From assembly GCF_027913215.1 (NCBI RefSeq), contig NZ_CP115784.1, positions 496,001 to 560,000 on the forward strand: 64,000 bases of DNA. Direction: 5' to 3'. Positions within the stretch are counted from its first letter, which is position 1; each line of letters starts with the position of its first letter. This document shows positions 2,850 to 12,490 of the stretch, piece by piece. A program made the position numbers and the translations under genes. The notes beneath the pieces were generated by a model, which had not been told where the DNA came from, made no database searches, and saw only the letters and a list, made by a program, of their open reading frames with translations. This stretch comes from Paracoccus aerodenitrificans. GTDB lineage: Bacteria > Pseudomonadota > Alphaproteobacteria > Rhodobacterales > Rhodobacteraceae.

Positions 2850-3049
2850 GTCTGCCTCACATTCTTTGTTTTTTGCTCATTCTAGGGGATTTGCCCGGCA
2901 GGTGAAACATCTTCCGAAAATGCCGGGAAAACCGGCGAAATTCGGAACTTGTCGGACAAGCTACCGTTGATTTGCCGTGATCGGCTTTCAAGCGAGCGCA
3001 TAACGCGCCATTCTTGAAGCTGCTTCAGCAGGTCCGCGGAGGGGAACGA

Positions 3050-4456
3050 ATGTATTATAACGAAATGTTCAACGGCGATCAGGTTCGTGAAGCCTACGCC
3101 CATCTGTCCGGATGGGTGGAACAGATGCCAGCGGATTTCCGACAAATGAAACAGGCCGAGGCCGAGGCGCTGTTCCGGCGTATCGGAATCACCTTCGCGG
3201 TTTACGGCGAAGGGGGCGATCCCGATCGGCTGATCCCGTTCGACATGATGCCGCGCGTCTTTACTCAGTCCGAATGGCGCAGGCTTGAGCGCGGCATCAA
3301 GCAACGCGCCAAGGCGCTGAACGCATTCCTGCATGATGTGTATTCGCGCGGAGAAATCGTCCGTGCCGGGCGCATTCCCGCCCGTCTGGTCTATCAGAAT
3401 GAAGCCTATGAAAAAGCGGTGGTCGGGTTCGTTCCGCCGCGTGGCGTGTACAGCCATATTATCGGGATCGACCTTGTCCGCACCGGGCGCGACGATTTCT
3501 ATGTGCTGGAGGATAATTGCCGCACTCCTTCGGGTGTCAGCTATATGCTGGAGAACCGCGAGATCATGATGAGGATGTTCCCCGAATTGTTCCGCGGCAA
3601 CCGGATCGAGCCGGTGGACGGCTATCCCGACCTTCTCCGCCGCACACTGGAATCGGTGGCTCCGAAGAAATGTCAGGGACGGCCGCGCGTGGTGATCCTG
3701 ACGCCGGGGCATTTCAACAGCGCCTATTACGAGCATAGTTTCCTTGCCAATTTGATGGGAGTCGAACTGGTCGAAGGGCCGGATCTGTTCGTCGAGGGCG
3801 AATTCGTCTTCATGCGCACGACCGAGGGGCCGAAACGTGTCGATGTGATCTATCGCCGGATCGACGATGCCTTCATCGACCCGCTGACCTTCCGCCGCGA
3901 TTCCATGCTGGGCGTGCCGGGGCTGATGGATGTTTACCGCTCGGGCGGGGTGTCGATCTGTTCGGCACCGGGCGCGGGCGTGGCCGACGACAAGGCGATC
4001 TATACATTCGTGCCGGAAATGGTCCGCTTCTATCTGGGCGAAGAGCCGATCCTGAAGAATGTCGAGACCTGGACCCTCTGGAAAGAGGACGATTATAAAT
4101 ATGTGATGGATAATCTCGGCGATCTGGTGGTGAAAGAGGTTCACGGCTCGGGCGGTTACGGGATGCTGGTCGGGCCGCGCTCGACCAAGGCCGAGATCGA
4201 GAAGTTCCGCGGCCTGATCGAAAAGAAGCCGCATAATTACATCGCTCAGCCGACGCTGTCCCTGTCGACCTGCCCGACCTTTGTCGAGGACGGCATCGCG
4301 CCGCGTCATGTCGATCTGCGCCCCTTTTGTCTGTGCGGCGAACGGATCGAGCTGGTGCCGGGCGGGCTGACCCGCGTGGCGCTGAAAGAGGGCAGCCTTG
4401 TCGTGAACTCGTCTCAGGGCGGGGGCGTCAAGGATACCTGGGTCTTGTCGGAATAA
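3050..4456 (+). CDS. Circularly permuted ATP-grasp protein (Anbu operon, gene 1)
   Basis: ATP-grasp ligase-like protein of the circularly permuted type (DUF404/DUF407 family), expected to couple ATP hydrolysis to amide bond formation on an unknown acceptor. The ATG at 3050 follows GGAGGGG and gives 468 aa; an upstream in-frame TTG at 3014 is unlikely. Visible family motifs are RLIPFDMMPR near residue 60, FYVLEDNCRTPSGVSYMLENR near 155-175 (shown here in part: LEDNCRTPSGVSY), VVKEVHGSGGYGMLVGP near 360-375 (VHGSGGYGML) and the ending HVDLRPFCLCGERIELVPGG in short form HVDLRPF. It is first in a tight four-gene unit with an alpha-E protein, a transglutaminase-like protein and Anbu, a conserved gene neighbourhood with no settled physiological role. 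Confidence 0.88.
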   Translation: MYYNEMFNGDQVREAYAHLSGWVEQMPADFRQMKQAEAEALFRRIGITFAVYGEGGDPDRLIPFDMMPRVFTQSEWRRLERGIKQRAKALNAFLHDVYSRGEIVRAGRIPARLVYQNEAYEKAVVGFVPPRGVYSHIIGIDLVRTGRDDFYVLEDNCRTPSGVSYMLENREIMMRMFPELFRGNRIEPVDGYPDLLRRTLESVAPKKCQGRPRVVILTPGHFNSAYYEHSFLANLMGVELVEGPDLFVEGEFVFMRTTEGPKRVDVIYRRIDDAFIDPLTFRRDSMLGVPGLMDVYRSGGVSICSAPGAGVADDKAIYTFVPEMVRFYLGEEPILKNVETWTLWKEDDYKYVMDNLGDLVVKEVHGSGGYGMLVGPRSTKAEIEKFRGLIEKKPHNYIAQPTLSLSTCPTFVEDGIAPRHVDLRPFCLCGERIELVPGGLTRVALKEGSLVVNSSQGGGVKDTWVLSE

Positions 4457-4467
4457 GGGGGTCAACC

Positions 4468-5415
4468 ATGCTCAGCCGTACCGCATCAAACCTTTTCTGG
4501 CTTGGCCGCCATATGGAACGCGCGGAAACCGCTTCGCGCCTGTTCGAGGTGGGCGCACGCATCACCTTGCTGCCGAACACGACCGAGGGCTATCAGAACG
4601 AATGGGAATCGTTGCTGCGCGCCTCGGCGGCGTCGCAGCTGTATCATCAGGCCTATGACGCGCTGACGGAAGAAAACATGGAGAAATTCATGATCTTCGA
4701 CCGAAGCAACCCGTCCTCCGTGGCAAGCTGCATCTATAATGCCCGCGAATCCGGGCGCATTGTCCGCACCGCCCTGACCAGCCGGGTCTGGGACGCGCTG
4801 AACGTCGCCTGGCAGGAGATCCGCGCGATGGAGGCCGGTCAGGAAGACGCCGCCGATCTGGCGGATATGGTTGCGCGGCACGCCTCGACCGTGCAGGGCG
4901 CGATTGACGGCACGCAGCTTCGCAATGACGGTTTCCATTTCATGAAGCTTGGCTATGCGCTTGAGCGGGCGGATTCGACGGCGCGGATTCTGGACGTGAA
5001 ATATTTCGTTCTGCTGCCGCGGGTGGAGTTCGTCGGCTCGGGTCTGGACAGCTATCAGTGGCAGGTGATCCTGCGGGCGCTTTCGGCGCACAGATCCTTC
5101 CACTGGGCCTATGGCGAGGATGTCAGCGCCGGGCGGGTGGCGCATTTCCTGATCCTGAACGGAGAGGCCCCGCGTTCGCTGATCACCTCGGTTCAGGAGG
5201 CGTTGTGGCATCTGGAAACGCTGGTGCGCCGCTATGGGGACATGGTGCCGCATACCGCGCGGGACCGTGCGCAGGCGCTTGCAGATCGCATGAATGCGCT
5301 AAATGTTGACGATATTTTCGACGAGGGGCTGCATGAGTTCCTCACCGACTTCATCATCGAGATCGGTCAGGTCGCAAGCTGCGTTCAGGCCGATTACTTC
5401 CACGGAAGGGGCTGA
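4468..5415 (+). CDS. Alpha-E domain protein (DUF403; Anbu operon, gene 2)
   Basis: All-helical alpha-E protein of 315 aa, the usual partner of circularly permuted ATP-grasp proteins; the two are fused in some bacteria. The start at 4468 lies 11 bases after the ATP-grasp stop and follows a GGGGG stretch. The N-terminus carries the family hallmark MLSRTASNLFWLGRHMERAE, and the middle shows NDGFHFMKLGYALERADSTARILDVKY in shortened form (GYALERADSTARILD). Repeated ERA(E/D) helices characterise the fold. No catalytic residues are known. The tight spacing implies one transcript with the flanking genes and suggests a protein complex. The molecular role is unknown; it may act as scaffold or substrate carrier for the ligase. 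Confidence 0.88.
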   Translation: MLSRTASNLFWLGRHMERAETASRLFEVGARITLLPNTTEGYQNEWESLLRASAASQLYHQAYDALTEENMEKFMIFDRSNPSSVASCIYNARESGRIVRTALTSRVWDALNVAWQEIRAMEAGQEDAADLADMVARHASTVQGAIDGTQLRNDGFHFMKLGYALERADSTARILDVKYFVLLPRVEFVGSGLDSYQWQVILRALSAHRSFHWAYGEDVSAGRVAHFLILNGEAPRSLITSVQEALWHLETLVRRYGDMVPHTARDRAQALADRMNALNVDDIFDEGLHEFLTDFIIEIGQVASCVQADYFHGRG

Positions 5416-5416
5416 T

Positions 5417-6229
5417 ATGCGGCTGAAGATCACGCATCATACCGTTTATAATTACGAACGCCCGGTCAGTTTCGGTGTGCAGAGCCTGCGGGTCATGCCA
5501 TCGGTCTTTCAGGGGCAGAAGGTTATCGAGTGGAATGTCGATATGGGCGAGCACAGCGAGCCGGGCGCGGGGTTTCGCGACGGTGCCGGCGACTGGGTGC
5601 AGCTCTGGACGATTCACGGGCCGGTGCAGCAAGTGCCGGTCCGCACCGAGGGCATCGTCGAGACCTCGGACCTTGCCGGGGTGCTGCGCGGTCATCGCGA
5701 GATGATTCACCCGATGGTCTATCTGCAATCGACCGAAACGACGGCACCTGACGACGCCATTCTCGATATTGCGGCGGGCCCCGGTCAGGATCTTTCGCCG
5801 CTTGATCTGGCGCATGAATTGTCGCGCCTGGTCCATGAAAAAATCGCCTATCGCCAAGGGGTGACCAACGGGATCACCACCGCCGCCGAAGCTCTGGCAT
5901 TGGGCGAGGGCGTCTGTCAGGACCATGCGCATGTGCTGATCGCCCTTGCCCGGCAGCGCGAATTGCCCGCGCGGTATGTCTCGGGCTATCTTCATGCGGA
6001 TGCCGAGGGCAACGCCCATGAAGCCGCGCATGCCTGGGCCGAAATCCATATACAGGGTCTCGGCTGGGTCGGGTTCGATGCGGCCAACCAGACCTGCCCG
6101 AACGAGTTCTATATTCGCACCGGATCGGGACTGGATTCCCGCGATGCCGCGCCCATCCGGGGCGTGACTGCGATGGGCGGTGCAGAGCGGCTTGATGTCA
6201 AGGTTGCGGTTGAGCAAGTCGAGGCGTAG
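5417..6229 (+). CDS. Transglutaminase-like cysteine protease family protein (Anbu operon, gene 3)
   Basis: 270-aa protein with an N-terminal bacterial transglutaminase-associated beta domain (MRLKITHHTVYNYERPV) and a C-terminal papain-like transglutaminase core. The catalytic triad is visible: Cys167 in GEGVCQDHAH, His205 in EAAHAWAEIH and Asp221 in GFDAANQ. The start at 5417 lies one base after the stop of the alpha-E gene and fits the family N-terminus; a longer in-frame ORF reaches back into that gene but is not needed. Bacterial members of this group are predicted proteases or peptide-bond-forming enzymes. In this setting it probably trims or transfers the product made by the ATP-grasp/alpha-E pair. 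The substrate is unknown. Confidence 0.88.
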   Translation: MRLKITHHTVYNYERPVSFGVQSLRVMPSVFQGQKVIEWNVDMGEHSEPGAGFRDGAGDWVQLWTIHGPVQQVPVRTEGIVETSDLAGVLRGHREMIHPMVYLQSTETTAPDDAILDIAAGPGQDLSPLDLAHELSRLVHEKIAYRQGVTNGITTAAEALALGEGVCQDHAHVLIALARQRELPARYVSGYLHADAEGNAHEAAHAWAEIHIQGLGWVGFDAANQTCPNEFYIRTGSGLDSRDAAPIRGVTAMGGAERLDVKVAVEQVEA

Positions 6230-6261
6230 ACAGCCCGCGAAGCGAATCTCTGGGCAGATCT

Positions 6262-6990
6262 ATGACCTATTGCGTCGGACTGAAACTGAATGCCGGGCTG
6301 GTGCTGCTGTCGGATACGCGGACCAATGCCGGGCTGGATAATATCTCGACTTACCGCAAGATGTTCTTCTTCGAGGAACCGGGCGAGCGGGTGATCGCGA
6401 TCATGACCGCGGGCAGCCTGTCGGTGACGCAAACCACGATTGCCCGCCTTCAGGAGGCCATCGATAACAGCGAAGCCAATGAGCGCAATTCGATCATGAA
6501 AGCCACCTCGATGCTGGGTGTAGTCGAGATCATCGGCGATACGCTGGCCAGCACACGGCAGGAAATCGCCTCGCAATATCTGGATCTCAAGCAGAGCCAG
6601 GCCTCGGCCAGCATGATCGTGGCCGGTCAGCGGGCCGGTGGCGAAATGCGGCTGTTCCTTGTCTATCCCGAGGGCAACCATATCGAGGCGACCGAGGACA
6701 CACCCTATCTTCAGATCGGCGAGCATAAATACGGCAAGCCGATCCTCGACCGGGTGGTGACGCCTGCGACCTCGCTGGAGGACGCGCAGAAAGCGGTTCT
6801 TTTGTCGATGGATTCGACGATGAAGTCGAATCTGTCGGTGGGCATGCCGCTGGATCTGGCGATCATCGAAACCGATGCCTGCCGCGTCAGCGCCAAACGT
6901 CGCATCATGCAAAGCGACCCGCAATTCTCGGCAATGTCCGAAGCATGGTCCGAGGCGCTGCGCGAAGCGTTCGTGCAAATGCCGCTTTAG
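6262..6990 (+). CDS. Anbu proteasome-type peptidase (Anbu operon, gene 4)
   Basis: Bacterial proteasome-homologue peptidase (Anbu, ancestral beta subunit), 242 aa, related to HslV and 20S beta subunits. The N-terminus MTYCVGLKLNAGLVLLSDTR is the family signature (short form MTYCVGLKLNAG): removal of Met1 would expose Thr2 as the nucleophile. SDTRTNAGLDNISTYRKMF contains the conserved Asp/Arg region, and the lysine in TYRKM corresponds to the catalytic lysine region. Studied Anbu proteins form helical or open-ring assemblies rather than closed barrels, and their physiological substrate remains uncertain. It follows the transglutaminase gene by 32 bases. No dedicated ATPase partner such as HslU is adjacent. 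Confidence 0.9.
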   Translation: MTYCVGLKLNAGLVLLSDTRTNAGLDNISTYRKMFFFEEPGERVIAIMTAGSLSVTQTTIARLQEAIDNSEANERNSIMKATSMLGVVEIIGDTLASTRQEIASQYLDLKQSQASASMIVAGQRAGGEMRLFLVYPEGNHIEATEDTPYLQIGEHKYGKPILDRVVTPATSLEDAQKAVLLSMDSTMKSNLSVGMPLDLAIIETDACRVSAKRRIMQSDPQFSAMSEAWSEALREAFVQMPL

Positions 6991-7041: not shown

Positions 7042-7242
7042 ATGAGATTGAAGGGTGTATGTGCGTCCTGCGGATGGAAAACCAAGCGGGAGTTCCGAAA
7101 CATGTCTAGGCCTTGCCCAAAGTGTAAGGGCCCTGTCTACGTACATAAGGACGACAAGGATCAGGCGGTGATTATTACAGTCACTTCAGTGGCAGCAATG
7201 GTCGTGATTGCCATTATCTTTGCTGCTCTGGGTGTGGGCTAA
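7042..7242 (+). CDS. Small zinc-ribbon protein with C-terminal membrane helix
   Basis: 66-aa protein of unknown function. Two CxxC knuckles, CASC (from residue 7) and CPKC (from residue 25), form a likely zinc ribbon. The C-terminal third, from about residue 42, is one hydrophobic helix ending GVG, so the protein should be anchored in the inner membrane with the ribbon in the cytoplasm. Codon and base use look AT-richer than the adjacent operon and mutS, suggesting a recently acquired or weakly selected gene. It starts 51 bases after Anbu. Whether it is cotranscribed with the Anbu operon or has its own promoter cannot be told. I recognise no named family. Confidence 0.6.
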   Translation: MRLKGVCASCGWKTKREFRNMSRPCPKCKGPVYVHKDDKDQAVIITVTSVAAMVVIAIIFAALGVG

Positions 7243-10180: not shown

Positions 10181-11497
10181 TCAGGCGACCTGCCGCCGTG
10201 ACAGTTCCGGGAAGTCAGCGGTTTCGCTGGTCTCGAATTTTTCCAGCAATTTGGTGAGATCGTTTACCTGTGAAGACAGGGAACTCGCCGCTCCGGCATA
10301 GCTTTCAGACATCGAGAGATTCGCCTGATTGACCCCGTCAAGATGGGCCAGAGCCGAGGACACTTCCTGTACACCGGTTGTCTGCTCGGCGGTGGCATGT
10401 GCGATGCCCGAGATATGGTCCACAACGCCGCGCACGGCAGTTTGAATATCGTTAAGCGCACTGCCTGTCTGGCGGACGAGATCAGCGCCGGATTTCACCT
10501 CTGCTTCGCTTTTGCCGATCAGTTCGGCGATGCTTTGCGATGCCTTGCCCGATTGCTGGGCGAGATTGCGGACCTCTTGCGCGACGACGGCGAAGCCGCG
10601 ACCGACTTCGCCGGCGCGGGCGGCTTCCACTGCGGCGTTGATCGAAAGGAGATTTGTCTGGAAGGCGAAATTCTCAATGACGCTGGTGAACTCGCCCATG
10701 CTTTTGGTGTGCTGTTCGATCCGCTCAATCGCGGCAACTGCATCCGCAACAACGTCATTTCCGTGGTTGACGACTTTTTCGGCATCCTTGGTGGCGGTGT
10801 TCACCTCTTGTGCGGAATTGCTGGTCATCGCGGTATTGCCTGAAATCTGTTCGACTGCCGCCGCAGTCTGCTCCAGAGAGGCCGCCTGGCTTTCGCCGCG
10901 TCGCGCAAGGTCGTCTGCACCCTGCGCGATCTGTTCGGCCTCTTTGTGGATCATGGCCGCACGTTTTCGGATATCGTTGACCATGCTGGAAAAATTATCA
11001 ACAGTCCGGTTATAGCTGTCCCGCACGGCAGCAAATTCCGGCGGCATGTCCTGGGTCAGACGGTGCGTCACGTTGCAGTCGGCAAGTTTGACCAGCCCGT
11101 CGATAATGCTTGAGACCGCCATTTTCTGAGCGGTGATGTCGGTGGCCATTTTCAGCACACCCCTGACTTTTCCCTGATCATCCATCAGGGGCACATAGCT
11201 TCCGCTGATCCAGACCTGAGCGCCGGTTCGATTTAAACGTTCAAACTCTCCGGTGAAGGCTGCGCCCTGACCGAGCTGGCGCCAGAATTCCGAATATTCC
11301 AGCGTATTTGCCTGTTCCGCACGGACGAAGATCCGGTGGTGCCGTCCGACGATATCGTCACGGCGATAGCCCATCAGGCCAAGAAAATTCTCATTCGCTT
11401 CGACAATTGTACCGTCCGGCGTGAATTCGATCATCGCCTGAGCAAGGCTGAGCGCCCTGACGCGGTCATTGTCATTCAATGGTTTCGATTCGGTCAT
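10181..11497 (-). CDS. Soluble PAS-domain methyl-accepting chemotaxis protein
   Basis: Cytoplasmic chemoreceptor of 438 aa. An N-terminal PAS domain (about residues 15-125; FTPDGTIVEANENFLGLMGY, then FRLNRTG-like ERLNRTGAQVW and a PAC segment MATDITAQKMA) precedes a HAMP-like linker and a coiled-coil signalling domain. The hairpin tip is clear: FQTNLLSINAAVEAARAGE followed by GRGFAVVAQEVRNLAQQS, the CheA/CheW contact region. No membrane segment is seen, so the sensor is internal, possibly reading redox state or a small ligand through PAS. The start at 11497 has AGGA five bases upstream, better than the ATG at 11509. The C-terminus lacks an obvious CheR-tethering pentapeptide. No che genes are nearby. 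Confidence 0.88.
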   Translation of the reverse strand: MTESKPLNDNDRVRALSLAQAMIEFTPDGTIVEANENFLGLMGYRRDDIVGRHHRIFVRAEQANTLEYSEFWRQLGQGAAFTGEFERLNRTGAQVWISGSYVPLMDDQGKVRGVLKMATDITAQKMAVSSIIDGLVKLADCNVTHRLTQDMPPEFAAVRDSYNRTVDNFSSMVNDIRKRAAMIHKEAEQIAQGADDLARRGESQAASLEQTAAAVEQISGNTAMTSNSAQEVNTATKDAEKVVNHGNDVVADAVAAIERIEQHTKSMGEFTSVIENFAFQTNLLSINAAVEAARAGEVGRGFAVVAQEVRNLAQQSGKASQSIAELIGKSEAEVKSGADLVRQTGSALNDIQTAVRGVVDHISGIAHATAEQTTGVQEVSSALAHLDGVNQANLSMSESYAGAASSLSSQVNDLTKLLEKFETSETADFPELSRRQVA

Positions 11498-11662
11498 CGC
11501 CGTCCTCATAGCTGGTGCTGCCTGCAGCGATAAACATGGAAGATTAAGAACAGCTTTATCTTCAAGGCCTTCTGCGGGACGTGGTAAACGGGATGGGCAT
11601 TGCGAAGGTGGACTCTGGTCGCGGCAAGCGCGTAACTGGACAAATCCGAAAAGGGGCTTCCG

Positions 11663-12490
11663 ATGCGAATTCTATTCCTTGGTGATGTGATGGGCCGGGC
11701 CGGCAGGGCCGCGATTGCCGGGCAATTGCCGGAGTTGAGGCAGGTTTTGCGGGCGGATTTCTGCGTTGTGAACGGTGAGAACGCATCCGGCGGCATGGGC
11801 CTGACCGGAGGACATGCCCAGCTTCTGCTTGAGGCCGGGGCCGATGTTGTCACGCTTGGCGACCACGCCTTCGATCAGCGGGATATGTTGAGTTTTATCG
11901 AAAAAGAGCCTCGCGTGCTGCGTCCGATGAATTTCGCAAAGGACGCGCCGGGCCGTGGCGCAGGGGTTTTCGAGGCATCCAGGGGGCGCAGGGTCATGGT
12001 TGCTCAGGTATTGGGCAATGTTTTCATGAAACGGGCGTTCGACGACCCGTTTTCAGCGCTGGATGCGGTGCTGAGGGCACATCCGATGGGGGCGATGGCG
12101 AGTGTTCAGGCGGCTCTGGTCGATTTTCATGCCGAGGCGACCTCGGAAAAAATGGCGGCCGGGCATTTTTGTGATGGGCGTGCAAGCCTTGTCGTCGGAA
12201 CGCATACCCATGTTCCGACCGGAGATGCGCAGATCCTGAACCGGGGAACGGCCTATCTGACCGATGCCGGGATGTGCGGAGATTATGACAGCGTCATCGG
12301 GATGGAAAAAACCGAGCCGCTGCGCCGTTTCGTGACCGGGATGAGCCGCGAGCGGTTCTCTCCCGCACAGCAGGACGCCACGTTGTGCGGCGTTCTGGTC
12401 GAGACCGATGACCGCACCGGTCTGGCGCAGCATGTCTGGCCGATCCGGCATGGAGGCCGACTTTCGCCTGCGATGCCTGCCGGGGCGTGA
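11663..12490 (+). CDS. YmdB-family metallophosphoesterase (cyclic-nucleotide phosphodiesterase)
   Basis: Calcineurin-like metallophosphoesterase of the TIGR00282/YmdB family, 275 aa. Bacillus YmdB hydrolyses 2',3'-cyclic nucleotides and affects the switch between motility and biofilm. Metal-binding motifs are visible in order: MRILFLGDVMGRAG at the N-terminus, VVNGENASGG near residue 38, VVTLGDHAFDQ near 68, the VDFHAEATSEK segment near 153 and GTHTHVPTGD near 178. AAGGGG precedes the start. It is divergent from the chemoreceptor gene; whether the two are functionally linked is unknown. It is often next to yebC-like or 5-formyltetrahydrofolate genes in relatives; here a permease follows after 90 bases. 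Confidence 0.85.
   Translation: MRILFLGDVMGRAGRAAIAGQLPELRQVLRADFCVVNGENASGGMGLTGGHAQLLLEAGADVVTLGDHAFDQRDMLSFIEKEPRVLRPMNFAKDAPGRGAGVFEASRGRRVMVAQVLGNVFMKRAFDDPFSALDAVLRAHPMGAMASVQAALVDFHAEATSEKMAAGHFCDGRASLVVGTHTHVPTGDAQILNRGTAYLTDAGMCGDYDSVIGMEKTEPLRRFVTGMSRERFSPAQQDATLCGVLVETDDRTGLAQHVWPIRHGGRLSPAMPAGA

Follow-up and report, generated by a model that had tools for sequence, protein, structure and literature searches.

The closest described relative of the locus considered here is the Anbu operon known from Yersinia bercovieri and further bacteria, which shares with it all four genes, identically ordered (a circularly permuted (CP) ATP-grasp ligase, an alpha-E protein, a transglutaminase-like protein and the proteasome-like Anbu), and the conserved Thr, Asp and Lys of Anbu (PMC6376114, PMC5666114); it had been treated earlier by Iyer et al. 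(2009) and by Valas and Bourne (2008), as cited in these two reports. Our locus occupies positions 3050-6990 on the + strand of a 64,000-nt stretch of the Paracoccus aerodenitrificans genome, hereafter the window, whose first letter is the origin of all coordinates. A second described relative, the Pseudomonas putida operon PP_2685-PP_2688, encodes Anbu, a transglutaminase and a CP-ATP-grasp and is induced by nitrogen limitation (PMC7801951, PMC8050072); compared with it, the window carries a palindrome, and no σ54 site was seen there. Similarly, the Pseudomonas Rim and Rlo systems encode an ATP-grasp together with a peptidase, and Rlo also a transglutaminase-fold protein. However, they have an aspartic peptidase in place of Anbu and an inactive membrane transglutaminase, and the term alpha-E is absent from the text of that report (PMC12239564).

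The locus does not differ in any essential way from the known Anbu operon. Because its gene set and order, as well as the tagging and peptide-synthesis hypotheses, are already published, with the reaction still not known, the preliminary description of this DNA, which presented the operon as a candidate for undescribed biology, recognized a real operon and overstated its novelty (PMC6376114, PMC5666114). As far as the searched literature extends, the additions made here are the operon-level σ54 statistics and pairing counts, a palindrome shared with nitrogen transporters, the duplication within alpha-E, a fused and apparently degenerate paralogue, and a pattern of cysteine loss. From these we propose, as a reading with an even chance of being right, that the Anbu operon is a nitrogen-limitation pathway organized around an ATP-dependent amide ligase. 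Anbu itself has solved structures, has no known substrate and is invoked in arguments on how the proteasome originated. If the operon belongs to the nitrogen-limitation response, this indicates the condition, the harmless strains and the gene pair in which to seek its product, and we argue that study should center on the ATP-grasp/alpha-E pair rather than on Anbu. The features of the locus are as follows.

2921..2937, no strand assigned: candidate operator, a TGCC-N9-GGCA palindrome with one mismatch, 129 bases 5' of the ATP-grasp start
3050..4456, + strand: circularly permuted ATP-grasp ligase, 468 amino acids, PF14403/PF04174 (Pfam 4.7e-164, 3.3e-145)
4468..5415, + strand: alpha-E, 315 amino acids, PF04168 (1.6e-83), its two helical halves (residues 1-149 and 150-315, approximately) being homologous
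5417..6229, + strand: transglutaminase-like cysteine enzyme, 270 amino acids, PF01841 (8.2e-21) and PF08379 (1.2e-16), Cys167/His205/Asp221
6262..6990, + strand: Anbu, a proteasome-like N-terminal nucleophile (Ntn) hydrolase, 242 amino acids, PF00227 (4.8e-9), Thr2/Asp18/Lys33

All four genes are intact, each with an ATG start and a single terminal stop, and they are separated by 11, 1 and 32 bases; the coordinates and Pfam thus bear out the close packing reported in the preliminary description, and the gene set that defines an Anbu operon is present in the defining order on one strand. The motifs it had listed, VHGSGGYG in the ATP-grasp and NLFWLGRHMERAE in alpha-E, were found in the window proteins, its positions for the transglutaminase triad were correct, and the Thr2 it had named in Anbu is accompanied by Asp18 and Lys33. 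Across the whole genome there is one alpha-E, one CP-ATP-grasp and one PF08379 match, while PF00227 matches twice: Anbu, and a second, distant gene on the same contig that is presumably HslV.

Co-occurrence was surveyed in 200 Pseudomonadota genomes, with Anbu detected by a profile. Alpha-E was present in 112 and Anbu in 69 of them; 68 genomes had both, one (G094) had Anbu alone, 44 had alpha-E alone and 87 had neither (Fisher 6e-22, kinship among the genomes being ignored). A count by hand places at least 60 of the 69 Anbu genes no more than 10 kb from a listed alpha-E of the same contig. Gene order was compared in a distant set of 80 regions, each at most 20 kb long, picked to span the genera of the alpha-E survey and containing 70 split (stand-alone) and 29 fused alpha-E copies. 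An ATP-grasp was directly upstream of, or fused to, alpha-E in all 99 copies, so the rare adjacency that had been named beforehand as a refuting outcome did not appear. A transglutaminase followed within 900 bases of alpha-E in 42/70 split and 29/29 fused copies. Anbu was less regular: a same-strand Anbu gene within 3 kb accompanied 27/70 split and 0/29 fused copies, and one lay anywhere in the locus for 34/70 and 5/29, respectively. Among close relatives, represented by the best 80 of 560 confirmed matches, the ATP-grasp and transglutaminase genes adjoin alpha-E in 80/80 loci, with a same-strand Anbu within 3 kb in 61/80, some loci stopping at a contig end. These findings establish the ATP-grasp and alpha-E as an obligate pair and the core of the operon, in support of the operon as first described, and Anbu as an optional client of that pair: since 68 of the 69 Anbu genomes have alpha-E and 44 of the 112 alpha-E genomes lack an Anbu match, the dependence runs from Anbu to the pair and in that direction alone.

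The position of Anbu is itself variable. For 17 of the 73 Anbu genes of the close loci (L032-L111; e.g. L039, L058, L069, L090), either over 1 kb lies between Anbu and the transglutaminase gene or the two are on opposite strands, and in the loci inspected they are divided by a large reverse-strand gene, whose product we take to resemble a periplasmic nucleotidase. In L145, L147, L149 and L170, Anbu adjoins a large transglutaminase and is divergent from the fused gene. Among the recurrent clusters of open reading frames (ORFs) around the 80 distant loci, judged by eye, the large transglutaminase was the most widespread and the rest looked generic or antisense; no urea cluster was recognized by eye beside these operons, no dedicated search for one having been made.

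The first line of regulatory evidence comes from the distant relatives. The σ54 element, defined as TGGCACG-N4-TTGCW (-24/-12) with a weighted score of at least 0.85, occurs upstream of 31/70 split operons, which represent 17 of 41 families, and 27 of these 31 elements sit 56 to 171 bases upstream. The controls were far lower: 11/644 for other upstream regions, 0/29 for fused copies, 3/70 on the opposite strand, 1/70 with each of four wrong spacers and at most 3/70 for 40 shuffled motifs (enrichment by Fisher test 9e-26, kinship ignored). A published survey of σ54 regulons already lists the proteasome-type protease COG3484 (PMC12316311). The idea of a symmetric TGC-N11-GCA-like site lying 5' of the σ54 element was also considered and found no support (1/27, in L117, vs 36/644 controls).

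The second line comes from the Rhodobacteraceae, in which the σ54 element is rare (about 6/80 close loci). For these upstream counts the 80 close operons comprise 79 close loci, with the split locus L080 left out, and the window. Dyad counting in their upstream regions brought out TGCC-N9-GGCA, whose exact form precedes 41/80 operons vs 19/881 controls, at spacing 9 only. Its outer spacing (TGC-N11-GCA) is, to our understanding, the same as in the NtrC consensus. The strict form CTGCC-N9-GGCAG precedes 13/80 operons (controls 2/881; random windows 19/4000) and recurs at the nitrogen transporter genes amtB (6/30) and urtA (4/26), with 0/30 at grpE; the flanking C and G were required after the loose-form grpE result had been seen, and were already consensus flanks. 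In its loose form, scored in 680-base windows, the palindrome was found at 9/26 urtA and 1/29 P-II promoters. The amtB gene of the window genome carries an exact TGCC-N9-GGCA. Regulation common to the operon and the nitrogen transporters thus appears supported for the group, and weakly for the window alone.

Published expression data point in the same direction. In P. putida, PP_2688 (the CP-ATP-grasp) and PP_2685 rose approximately 16-fold and 22-fold, respectively, on nitrate relative to ammonium, and the PP_2688 promoter was induced 3.7-fold by nitrogen depletion (PMC8050072); a separate study reported PP_2686-2688 to be 11- to 15-fold up under nitrogen limitation (PMC7801951). In Burkholderia cenocepacia, I35_5080-83, encoding an ATP-grasp, an alpha-E and two transglutaminase-domain proteins, are listed as common targets of NtrC and σ54, with no Anbu named (PMC5491218). 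In marine metagenomes, the operon's domains correlate with urea metabolism (PMC3597751). Taken with these published results from P. putida and B. cenocepacia, the regulatory sites make it likely that the operon is used under nitrogen limitation, a link that the preliminary description missed.

A number of observations weigh against this interpretation. In P. putida, the PP_2685 promoter fragment was indifferent to nitrogen in the data reported (PMC8050072), PP_2685 (Anbu) was uninduced (1.12-fold) in the wild type of the other study, and induction persisted in an rpoN mutant (PMC7801951; see also PMC3325844), which speaks against simple σ54 dependence in that species. The window has no σ54 site, its best score being 0.69 against the 0.85 threshold; among the distant genomes, 9 lone and 7 divergent Anbu genes have no σ54 score of 0.85 or above; and the NtrC-type GCAC-N7-GTGC is just modestly enriched (5/70 vs about 1% of 644). 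Similarly, the loose palindrome does not clearly distinguish amtB (10/30) from grpE (5/30; Fisher 0.23), P-II promoters lack the palindrome (strict form 0/29), and the 17 separated Anbu genes of the close loci have no exact copy. In the window, the palindrome at 2921-2937 has one mismatch, and its position weight matrix score is equalled by 4% of the 881 controls. All counts given here take related loci as independent, and no product or substrate of the operon is known.

The best-surviving alternative is that the lineage of the window stands outside the nitrogen link, its palindrome serving another regulator and the nitrogen role being confined to lineages with the σ54 promoter. The imperfect palindrome of the window, the P-II promoters without one and the unidentified binding protein all suit this explanation, whereas the contrast of amtB and urtA with grpE in the strict form, and the exact site at the window genome's own amtB, argue against it; we consider it possible, with a chance well short of even.

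The candidate catalytic residues of the stand-alone ATP-grasp are intact. E154, N156, R158, K315, K362, G368, G369, Y370, G371, D422 and N453 are each conserved in 70/70 distant split ATP-grasps; the free variation of catalytic residues that had been named as a refuting outcome therefore did not appear. The PDB relative of the protein is 3n6x, matched over its full length (E = 3e-197), and a profile of 28 ATP-grasps found no convincing PDB chain besides it. This entry is named a putative glutathionylspermidine synthase, the name being the depositor's, so that comparison with glutathionylspermidine synthetase rests on a sole relative that is itself called only “putative.”

The fused paralogue resembles the operon in having homologous ATP-grasp and alpha-E parts and a transglutaminase directly downstream in 29/29 cases, and differs from it in being a single protein, in the loss of most of these residues and in having no σ54 site (0/29). 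In an independent alignment of the 29 fused copies, E154, R158 and K315 were kept in 1 each, K362 in 5, G368 in 4, G369 in 3, G371 in 2, and N156, Y370, D422 and N453 in none, while P160, G162, R170, E228, D245 and D277 were retained in 29/29. With most of its candidate catalytic residues gone, the ATP-grasp part of the fused paralogue appears degenerate, and we infer that the lost residues bind ATP or metal. The fused copies are located in L112-L191 (e.g. L123, L126, L132, L145), usually with a large transglutaminase nearby.

Alpha-E is confidently modeled as an all-helical protein with a predicted local distance difference test (pLDDT) of 91.8 and a predicted template-modeling score (pTM) of 0.91, from 94 sequences. 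The first and second halves align with each other in hhalign (E = 7.5e-18, 140 columns) and are thus homologous, making alpha-E a tandem duplication. No match was found among PDB sequences, and a fold comparison of the model gave nothing exceeding the stated noise for helical bundles. Residues conserved at 97% or more in split alpha-E include E17, R18, R24, R93, R100, W108, N112, E166, R167, R173, P235 and R236; because alpha-E is an obligate partner, such a conserved Arg, Glu and Asn set suggests that it has a site for binding or catalysis.

The transglutaminase-like enzyme, whose PDB relative is 3isr, has the Cys-His-Asp triad of the active members of its superfamily. In the distant loci, Cys167 is present after 25/26 split operons with an adjacent Anbu, the 26th row ending at a contig end, and after 13/16 without one, the exceptions having S, A and G in L138, L142 and L121, respectively; it is also kept in 29/29 enzymes after fused genes, 27/27 large proteins and 3/3 others. 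These 3/16 replacements in operons without an adjacent Anbu qualify the conservation of catalytic residues noted above. None of the three genomes with a replaced cysteine has an Anbu match. Since the replacement occurs only where Anbu is absent, these small numbers suggest joint action of the cysteine enzyme with Anbu. This pattern and the degeneracy of the fused paralogue offer further testable dependencies. For Anbu, the catalytic residues Thr1, Asp17 and Lys32/33 correspond to Thr2, Asp18 and Lys33 in the window, and the distant loci conserve them in 33/34, 34/34 and 34/34 cases; solved relatives are 5loy, 5nyj, 5nyf, 5nyw and 5lox. In L151, the Anbu gene (11060-11773) encodes Ser in place of Thr as the putative nucleophile.

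In the pathway we propose, nitrogen scarcity would lead a nitrogen regulator, most likely NtrC or NtrC-like, to switch the operon on, through the σ54 promoter in many other Pseudomonadota and through the TGCC-N9-GGCA palindrome in Rhodobacteraceae. The ATP-grasp would activate a carboxylate as an acyl phosphate and then couple an amine, with alpha-E, its obligate partner, probably holding the substrate or completing the active site. The transglutaminase-like enzyme, together with Anbu where present, may then act on the product as an amidase, transamidase or peptidase, and these last steps would return or transfer nitrogen. Here the physical complex, the identity of the regulator, and the reactions of the last two steps and their sequence are what we infer. 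An amide pathway, whether of a small molecule or a peptide, is preferred over targeted protein degradation because one ATP-grasp of this kind has been shown to liberate phosphate from ATP and the Anbu proteins studied so far left three proteasome substrates, standard peptides, uncleaved (PMC6376114), although the data do not separate the two.

More specifically, and tentatively, Anbu may serve as the Ntn amidase in an amide cycle that scavenges nitrogen, rather than as a protein-degrading machine. In such a cycle, the ATP-grasp, completed by alpha-E, would amidate a nitrogen compound, the cysteine enzyme and Anbu would hydrolyze or transfer the product, and the fused paralogue would take part as a pseudoenzyme, acting as regulator or carrier. 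We hold this joint proposal to be about as probable as a separate regulator in the window lineage.

Protein tagging and turnover is a somewhat weaker competitor, and we regard it as unlikely. In this published hypothesis (PMC6376114, PMC5666114), the ATP-grasp/alpha-E pair and the transglutaminase would tag proteins, and Anbu would remove the tag or degrade the target, recycling nitrogen much as the Pup-proteasome system does. The relationship of Anbu to the proteasome, its conserved Thr/Asp/Lys and the fact that protein turnover also fits nitrogen limitation are in its favor. However, 44 of the 112 alpha-E genomes have no Anbu match, no AAA+ unfoldase is encoded among the four operon genes according to Pfam (the search being confined to these four), and, besides the inactivity on the three peptides, YbAnbu formed no specific complex with other operon proteins in the experiments described (PMC6376114). 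The initial suggestion that Anbu degrades a marked target is likewise not supported, given these genome counts and published results. Comparably doubtful is a role of the ligase pair in producing a small peptide-like metabolite or store for its own sake, to be trimmed or recycled by the cysteine enzyme and Anbu, which accords with the peptide-synthesis system proposed by Iyer et al. (as cited in PMC5666114) and with the name of 3n6x, while exporter, carrier and precursor genes were not recognized, by eye only, among the recurrent neighbors, and induction by nitrogen scarcity argues against building a nitrogen store.

An Anbu gene also lies at 109407-110120 on a 172-kb Klebsiella pneumoniae plasmid (NZ_CP084831.1), and Anbu matches were found in 26 records of the plasmid collection, several of them chromosome-sized. 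In the window, a gene at 2274-2849 on the - strand is divergent from the operon and shares its intergenic region; we take its product to resemble a lytic-transglycosylase-type lipoprotein. Directly past Anbu, the small ORF at 7043-7240 (+ strand) encodes four cysteines as two CxxC pairs and a hydrophobic tail, and is possibly a zinc-ribbon membrane protein.

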